A stretch of 64,000 bases of DNA from Eunapius fragilis (lineage: Eukaryota; Porifera; Demospongiae; Spongillida; Spongillidae), in contig OY811992.1 of assembly GCA_963681505.1 (NCBI GenBank), forward strand, positions 4,638,223-4,702,222, read 5' to 3'. The position numbers were made by a program, and so were the translations under genes. The notes beneath the pieces are model-generated. The model saw only the letters and a program-made list of their open reading frames with translations. It ran no database searches and was not told the origin of the DNA. Shown here piece after piece: positions 16,901 through 22,659 of this stretch (the first letter of the stretch is position 1; each line of letters opens with the position of its first letter).

Positions 16901-19900
16901 TGTGCCCAGGTCCTACTCCTCCACTACCAGTCCCTTCACATGTGCCCAGGTCCTACTCCTCCACTACCAGTCCCTTCACATGTACCCAGGTCCTACTCCT
17001 CCACTACCAGTCCCTTCACATGTGCCCAGGTCCTACTCCTCCACTACCAGTCCCTTCACATGTGCCCAGGTCCTACTCCTCCACTACCAGTCCCTTCACA
17101 TGTACCCAGGTCCTACTCCTCCACTACCAGTCCCTTCACATGTGCCCAGGTCCTACTCCTCCACTACCAGTCCCTTCACATGTGCCCAGGTCCTACTCCT
17201 CCACTACCAGTCCCTTCACATGTGCCCAGGTCCTACTCCTCCACTACCAGTCCCTTCACATGTGCCCAGGTCCTACTCCTCCATTACCAGTCCCTTCACA
17301 TGTGCCCAGGTCCTACTCCTCCACTACCAGTCCCTTCACATGTGCCCAGGTCCTACGCCTCCACTACCACTCCCTTCACATGTGCCCAGGTCCTACTCCT
17401 CCACTACCAGTCCCTTCACATGTGCCCAGGTCCTACTCCTCCATTACCAGTCCCTTCACATGTGCCCAGGTCCTACGCCTCCACTACCAGTCCCTTCACA
17501 TGTGCCCAGGTCCTAAGCCTCCACTACCAGTCCCTTCACATGTGCCCAGGTCCTAAGCCTCCACTACCAGTCCCTTCACATGTGCCCAGGTCCTACTCCT
17601 CCATTACCAGTCCCTTCACATGTGCCCAGGTCCTACTCCTCCACTACCAGTCCCTTCACATGTGCCCAGGTCCTACTCCTCCACTACCAGTCCCTTCACA
17701 CGTGCCCAGGTCCTACTCCTCCACTACCAGTCCCTTCACATGTGCCCAGGTCCTCCGCCTCCACTACCAGTCCCTTCACATGTGCCCAGGTCCTACTCCT
17801 CCACTACCAGTCCCTTCACATGTGCCTAGGTCCTCCGCCTCCACTACCAGTCCCTTCACATGTGCCCAGGTCCTACTCCTCCACTACCAGTCCCTTCACA
17901 TGTGCCCAGGTCCTACGCCTCCATTACCAGTCCCTTCACATGTGCCCAGGTCCTACTCCTCCACTACCAGTCCCTTCACATGTGCCCAGGTACTACTCCT
18001 CCACTACCAGTCCCTTCACATGTGCCCAGGTCCTACTCCTCCACTACCAGTCCCTTCACATGTGCCTAGGTCCTCCGCCTCCACTACCAGTCCCTTCACA
18101 TGTGCCCAGGTCCTACGCCTCCACTACCAGTCCCTTCACACGTGCCCAGGTCCTACTCCTCCACTACCACTCCCTTCACATGTGCCCAGGTACTACTCCT
18201 CCACTACCAGTCCCCTTCACATGTGCCCAGGTCCTACGCCTCCACTACCAGTCCCTTCACATGTGCCCAGGTCCTACGCCTCCACTACCAGTCCCTTCAC
18301 ATGTGCCCAGGTCCTATGCCTCCACTACCAGTCCCTTCACATGTGCCCAGGTCCTACTCCTCCACTACCAGTCCCTTCACATGTGCCCAGGTACTACTCC
18401 TCCACTACCAGTCCCTTCACATGTGCCCAGGTCCTACTCCTCCACTACCAGTCCCTTCACATGTGCCCAGGCCCTACGCCTCCATTACCAGTCCCTTCAC
18501 ATGTGCCCAGGTCCTACGCCTCCACTACCAGTCCCTTCACATGTGCCCAGGTCCTACTCCTCCACTACCAGTCCCTTCACATGTGCCCAGGTCCTACTCC
18601 TCCACTACCAGTCCCTTCACATGTGCCCAGGTCCTACGCCTCCACTACCAGTCCCTTCACATGTGCCCAGGTCCTACTCCTCCACTACCAGTCCCTTCAC
18701 ATGTGCCCAGGTCCTACTCCTCCACTACCAGTCCCTTCACATGTGCCCAGGTCCTACTCCTCCACTACCAGTCCCTTCACATGTCCCCAGGTCCTACTCC
18801 TCCACTACCAGTCCCTTCACATGTGCCCAGGTCCTACGCCTCCACTACCAGTCCCTTCACATGTGCCCAGGTCCTACGCCTCCATTACCAGTCCCTTCAC
18901 ATGTGCCCAGATGGGACCTTTTAAACCATAAATGAAAGCTTGTGCATCTTCAATTCCAGCTAGTTAAGTAATTTACATCTGTGAGCTAAGGTTAATTAAG
19001 TGAGACTCTCATTTTTACTGTACATGTACATATTAGTTAATTACGTGAATTTTTGCCACAGTTTTATGTACATGCACCTAAGTGAATTTTTGCCATAGTT
19101 TTATGGTTAATTAAGATGCTTACATTTCCATCATAACTATCTTTATGCGTTTTCAGCCTTATATGTAGTTGTTACCAGTGAATTGTATACCTATACCATG
19201 CATCTCCATCACAGTTGCTAAAAATGATATCAACTTGCAGATTCAAATTGGAGCAATTTGATGCCAGCTAAAGCAACTTAGACCCTTGTAAGGAGAAGAA
19301 TTCATACATGACCTCATTAAAAGGAGATAAAATTCATCCATGACCCCTGGACCCCCTTACCAGCCCCTATGAGAGAAGCTACAGGCACCCAAACAAATAG
19401 GTTAGGCTTTCAAAATGAGGACATTCTATGTCTCAGCATGGGGACCAGGTGCTCCCATCACACCCAACATGACAACAGGTGTTCCTATCACACCCAGCAT
19501 GACAACTGGTGCTCCCATCACACCCAGCATGACAACTGGTGCTCCCATCACACCCAACATGACAACAGGTGTTCCTATCACACCCAGCATGACAACTGGT
19601 GCTCCCATCACACCCAGCATGACAACTGGTGCTCCCATCACACCCAACATGACAACAGGTGTTCCTATCACACCCAGCATGACAACAGGTGTTCCTATCA
19701 CACCCAGCATGACAACTGGTGCTCCCATCACACCCAGCATGACAACAGGTGTTCCTATCACACCCAGCATGACAACTGGTGCTCCCATCACACCCAGCAT
19801 GACAAAAGGTGCTTCCACTACACCCAGCATGACAATAGGTGTTCCCATCACACCACAAAAGCAATGAGACCAAATCACACAATAAGTACTCCCCCATTAG

Positions 19901-22659: not shown

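Follow-up and report, generated by a model that had tools for sequence, protein, structure and literature searches.

A 33-bp minisatellite repeating the predicted exon 3 donor of a 53BP1-like gene in the sponge Eunapius fragilis is a likely exon-boundary array

Why should one predicted exon of a sponge gene be followed by copy after copy of its own splice donor? In the window, i.e. the whole stretch of 64,000 nt that was analysed (C22:4638223-4702222), a 33-bp minisatellite is found where exon 3 of a 53BP1-like gene is predicted to end (19885..20870, minus strand; period 33, 30.2 copies and 94% matches according to TRF). Unit splitting and a genome-wide pattern search resolve it into 30 units, which read directly on the minus strand as GGGTAAGGTGTAGCACCTAATGAGGGAGCACTA. 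The motif GGGT occurs 30 times, and 29 units carry the donor AGG|GTAAG (the bar marks the junction) in register with the exon 3 end, 24 of them as GTAAGG and five as GTAAGT. The remaining unit, 22 nt in length and located at 20697, has lost its donor by an 11-bp deletion. The original prediction of about 29 donors at 19890-20861, with some variants carrying GTAAGT, is thus confirmed. A coding function of the plus strand was considered as well, since the frame 19321-20700 is open across much of the array. It was dropped because all three recurrent unit variants change an amino acid (A to T, S to P and P to T).

The host gene appears to be 53BP1-like, as its C-terminal BRCT domain is closest to TP53BP1. 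The respective ORF (3037..3261, minus strand) matches Pfam BRCT (3.7e-5) and has TP53BP1 as best PDB match (E 4.7e-10), in agreement with the identity proposed before. A Tudor domain was not located in the gene. The predicted model is a chain of ten exons from the ATG at 22659 to 4423 (minus strand), comprising 2,507 codons and no stop if the donor of unit 1 (20861) is joined to the acceptor at 15399. Since the sites were chosen with the phase in view, the open frame supports the gene model but does not prove it. Exon 3 is predicted at 20861..22234 by phase consistency, intron 3 at 15400..20860 (5,461 nt) and exon 4, which includes a 27-bp coding repeat, at 15021..15399 from sequence and phase chain, all three on the minus strand. 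At the acceptor 15399 (TGTTTAG|AAGAGG) the frame opens in phase 0. Exon 4 is without a good GT donor; a candidate GC-AG intron begins with AGAG|GCAAGT at 15021 (window 15010-15025, minus strand), in the right phase for an acceptor at 12877. Further downstream, a predicted exon of about 3.1 kb (8225-11330, minus strand) holds many coding minisatellites, the periods of which are divisible by 3.

The end of exon 3 has no homology support. It is conceivable that exon 3 ends elsewhere or is not spliced to exon 4, in which case the array would be intronic filler. Scored with a matrix for human splice sites, the donor at 20861 ranks highest within the open frame 22267-20843 (5.17 vs 4.57 for CAG|GTGACT at 21025). 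The donor at 21025 is in phase 1 and breaks the frame into exon 4, whereas the donor of unit 1 is in phase 0. We regard a different exon 3 end as clearly unlikely, and the placement of the exon 3 donor in the first unit, as claimed previously, is retained as the best-scoring and phase-consistent choice of the predicted model. If the second, third or fourth donor were used, the protein would stop after codon 507, with the stop computed to lie 15, 48 and 81 nt before the junction, respectively. By direct reading all donors beyond the fourth include the same stop. The in-frame TAA that was said to truncate the product with any later donor was recovered in this way. It follows from the model that the full-length protein would require the first donor.

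Predicted exon 3 has its last base at 20861; the array begins 9 nt before this base, and its first unit opens with the final 10 nt of the exon (GAGCACTAGG). The array spans the predicted boundary and repeats the splice signal in 29 of 30 units, as do the minisatellites termed "mirages" in amphioxus. We consider it likely that the array is such an exon-boundary minisatellite. In its favour, the sequence shows the anatomy and the reading frame, donor-bearing units at chance-level frequency, and similar arrays that recur in the same and the neighbouring gene. A stretch over the exon 3/intron 3 junction, with 10 nt on the exon side and 23 nt on the intron side, would have been duplicated in tandem, in place, and would have grown to 30 units within an intron that is mostly minisatellite. 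Exon 3 would be bounded by the donor of the first unit and the other units would carry donor copies as a by-product. The spliceosome would mostly take the first donor while the other 28 stay latent and near-neutral, and occasional use of a later one would probably yield truncated or decayed mRNA.

The unit can also be read as a tiny intron or introner-like element (GTAAG ... CTAAT ... CACTAG) that is spliced alone or recursively, given that a donor, a branchpoint-like CTAAT and a TAG recur from unit to unit by direct reading. However, the acceptor side is purine-rich and has no pyrimidine tract, and the resulting intron would measure 32 nt, whereas the shortest of 14 homology-based introns has 52 nt. 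Introners are recognised by many dispersed copies in many genes. In contrast, a search of the genome with a 22-nt core of the 33-mer gave 44 matches (up to three mismatches), all of them in only two arrays, one in the window on C22 and one on C21. An intron in each unit is therefore extremely unlikely.

Tandem arrays cover 87.8% of intron 3 and 45.7% of the gene span. Intron 3 also harbours a 40-bp minisatellite of 85 copies (15501..18910, minus strand; TRF and pattern search) and a 30-bp minisatellite (19446..19854, minus strand; TRF), a 26-nt pattern of which was found only here in the genome with up to three mismatches. One unit of the 40-mer has a single relative, on C3 (within C3:1823601-1825600). 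This is a stray unit at C3:1824592-1824620 with 3 mismatches in 29, not part of an array and beside an (ATGT)n microsatellite. A 21-bp repeat at 7255-7669 (minus strand), with units mostly ending in TGTGTGTAG, precedes a predicted acceptor (7232) by 23 nt and is possibly an acceptor-like ladder. A candidate acceptor mirage at 43193-43400, a 22-mer with TACTACAG in every unit, was rejected as no convincing downstream exon was seen. Other than that, a 28-bp unit forms two large arrays in opposite orientation (32213-33183 and 33805-36021), and the ~620 bp between them hold a 196-bp tandem duplication.

The chance level of donor-bearing units was evaluated with 88 arrays of period 10-100 and three or more copies, drawn from 194 kb. 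Of these, 47 stem from the window, 30 from 60 kb around the array on C21 and 3 from the window flanks; six arbitrarily chosen positions, 60 kb in sum, contributed 8. As the window is far richer in arrays than the arbitrary set, the sample does not represent the genome as a whole. Among the 88 minisatellites, 5 have a unit with a donor of at least this strength on one strand or the other, vs 4.18 ± 1.86 after shuffling, and 38% of the shuffles reach 5. Two of the five arrays belong to the 33-mer family. A minisatellite unit with a donor this strong is nothing unusual and occurs at the rate that chance predicts. Moreover, a junction inside an array is to be expected in an array-rich region, and its donor is then copied automatically.

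These numbers bear on the suggestion that the donors are functional, i.e. that they act as a decoy cluster, a buffer or a length-dependent rheostat which lowers expression of the 53BP1-like gene as the copy number grows. Each later donor examined gives the stop after codon 507, an intact donor persists in 29 of 30 units, five even with the stronger GTAAGT, and passages on human IFI6 describe two downstream repeat units that serve as donors (PMC4526556), all of which would fit a function. However, donor-bearing units arise at chance rate, in an intron and a gene span that are array-rich anyway. There is no sign of selection either: four positions are substituted among the 28 full-length units and one of them falls inside the 9-nt donor, about the one predicted from the donor's share of the unit. 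The 33-mer is also arrayed on C21 between two HIT-domain genes, where no donor use was recognised, and eight later donors of the neighbouring gene are all weakened by a C at +3. Amphioxus mirages are reported, in the passages concerned, to leave regular splicing undisturbed (PMC3087553). The decoy or rheostat mechanism, as far as the original prediction had put it forward, is not supported, and we judge it to be very unlikely.

The donor of exon 3 is not unique in its position. Two more donors of the 53BP1-like gene and one donor of the neighbouring gene are located at arrays that repeat the junction. The second array of the gene (5571..5692, minus strand) starts at a predicted exon end GTGGGAG|GTGAGG at 5692; the junction recurs five times as GAG|GTGAGG/T, within a 24-bp repeat and at its border (TRF 5574-5686). 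Behind this ladder, the intron repeats 14 nt (GTGTTTGAAGGAGG) out of the last 45 nt of the exon. We take this exon to resemble the oligomerisation region of human 53BP1; a PDB search with it gave no match. The third array (12402..12669, minus strand) has its predicted exon end CACACCCACCA|GTAGGC at 12656, placed by the phase chain. Its 37-bp repeat shows the junction in eight units, four with GTAGGC, which is a weak donor, and four with GTAGCT.

The array of the neighbouring MFS/Spinster-like gene (23724..24006, plus strand) is located 2.9 kb from the 33-bp array, and its junction is verified by homology. The exon ends with GGGCATAGGAGAG|GTAAGG, the last exon base being 23737, and exon 3 of this gene starts at 24408. 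The two joined exons match the transporter 6e8j through the junction (exon end GIGE|) with an E value of 7.8e-22, and the array unit holds coding sequence confirmed by homology. A paralogue of the gene is present on C13. The first unit has GTAAGG and is followed by eight 31-bp units, all eight with GAG|GTCAGG. C at +3 is rare in splice donors, and among the introns placed in the E. fragilis genome 1 of 14 has it. Hence the later donor copies of the MFS gene are weakened. The weakening, seen in this single case, may stem from selection as well as from drift with homogenisation. As the array contains true coding sequence, birth in place does occur in this region of the genome.

For the 33-mer, birth in place has to be weighed against the second array (C21:4090827-4091334, L010:827-1334; 16 units by unit split). 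Two tandem genes with HIT/DcpS_C domains flank it, and a (TG)n tract is adjacent. The array shares no flanking homology with that on C22 in the 60 kb compared, and by inspection neither a donor in use nor a junction was recognised. Five of its 16 donors differ at +5 or +6 (three GTAAAG, two GTAAGA), compared to 5 of 29 with T at +6 in the 53BP1-like gene, which are few events and not a test. Without shared flanks or a recognised junction on C21, birth in place is not the sole possible origin of the 33-mer, of which the exon share is 10 nt. As this array lies away from a recognisable donor, either of the two 33-mer arrays may have come first. Together with the stray 40-mer on C3 it indicates that units move between chromosomes.

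Accordingly, exon 3 might have received its donor from a C21-like source, i.e. a dispersed minisatellite that was exapted as a splice site. The restriction of all 44 core matches to the two arrays, the absent flanking homology and the single C3 relative of the 40-mer, which shows that units disperse, are in line with such a transfer. However, a genome search found the 31-mer, 37-mer and 30-mer patterns to be local at up to three mismatches, except for one low-complexity match. The MFS array with its true coding sequence shows birth in place, and the direction of a transfer could be either way. We consider an origin from elsewhere to be unlikely, and an exon-boundary minisatellite, presumably born in place, remains the preferred reading.

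Is there a more general relation between arrays and donors? In the two gene models 4 of 13 donors overlap an array or are no more than 6 nt away from one, vs 5.41 by circular shift. As this is below expectation, it is the edge position that is unusual and not the overlap as such. The 5' edge of an array lies at most 20 nt from 5 of the 13 donors. Circular shifting predicts 0.60 such donors (P 0.0008) and random placement of the arrays within their introns 1.88 (P 0.0044), both obtained post hoc from one window. The five donors are 20861, 5692, 12656, 23737 and the donor 3094 of the BRCT exon, where the array does not repeat the junction. Since the edge test was made in one window after several cases had been seen, the clustering is a lead only. 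A wider set was derived from Cpn60_TCP1 (PF00118) genes, with 14 introns placed by homology and two further exon pairs that gave none. At most one similar case was found among these 14 introns: the donor L057:2064, which is itself uncertainly placed, is possibly part of a 2.6-copy repeat, and at the locus L056 one array starts 49 nt after the donor. The donor clustering therefore rests on one window. That minisatellites of this sponge originate with preference at 5' splice sites and create donor ladders, of which the upstream-most donor is chosen regardless of the number of copies, is a tentative idea which we rather doubt.

To our knowledge, work on how one of several identical 5' splice sites is chosen usually involves two or three competitors. 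The locus presents 29 donors in a row, in a predicted DNA-repair gene, and has a ladder of six donors and a weakened ladder nearby. If the first donor is cleanly used, transcription order or an upstream enhancer must outrank many downstream sites. Should the idea of a preferential origin hold true, the genome would offer a natural series of donor-choice experiments, with ladders of 29 donors, 6 donors and eight +3 C donors within 19 kb. Moreover, minisatellite-rich invertebrate genomes may mislead gene predictors at exon ends.

The minisatellite of human IFI6 (6-16, G1P3) was reportedly studied by Turri et al. 1995. According to passages of PMC4526556, two of its downstream repeat units act as donors, and three mRNA species are reported. 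Later units serve as donors there, whereas in the sponge later donors would bring a stop codon. Internal tandem repeats in segmental duplications are described to modify human gene structure (PMC2812944, in part). What they have in common with the sponge array is the expansion of minisatellites (units there average 30 bp), by which exons and introns are altered and cryptic splice sites may become active. The human cases are differences between paralogs with transcript support, whereas ours is one assembled haplotype read from sequence alone. For sponges, no splice-donor minisatellite or mirage was seen among the matches listed from openly licensed literature. The passages of PMC2267160, a sponge study, mention population-restricted minisatellite repeats in sequence alignments, without assigning these to a splice site.

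The closest resemblance is to the amphioxus mirages, which are minisatellites over exon-intron boundaries, at the 5' or the 3' side, with units that often carry AG/GT signals. Cases are Adh3 and the globins BflGb6 and BflGb9, and RT-PCR by the authors suggests that regular splicing is intact (PMC3087553). Judged by the same passages, both systems share a minisatellite-like tandem repeat over the boundary, units with splice signals, several affected genes per lineage and homogenisation of units. They differ in that the sponge array consists of 30 copies of 33 bp, that three arrays occur in one gene and one in its neighbour, that the boundary is predicted here and RT-PCR was available there, and that the 33-mer is also arrayed on another chromosome. 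What E. fragilis would add to the known systems is mirages in a sponge, several of them in one window, along with array 5' edges that cluster at donors in a small sample analysed post hoc.
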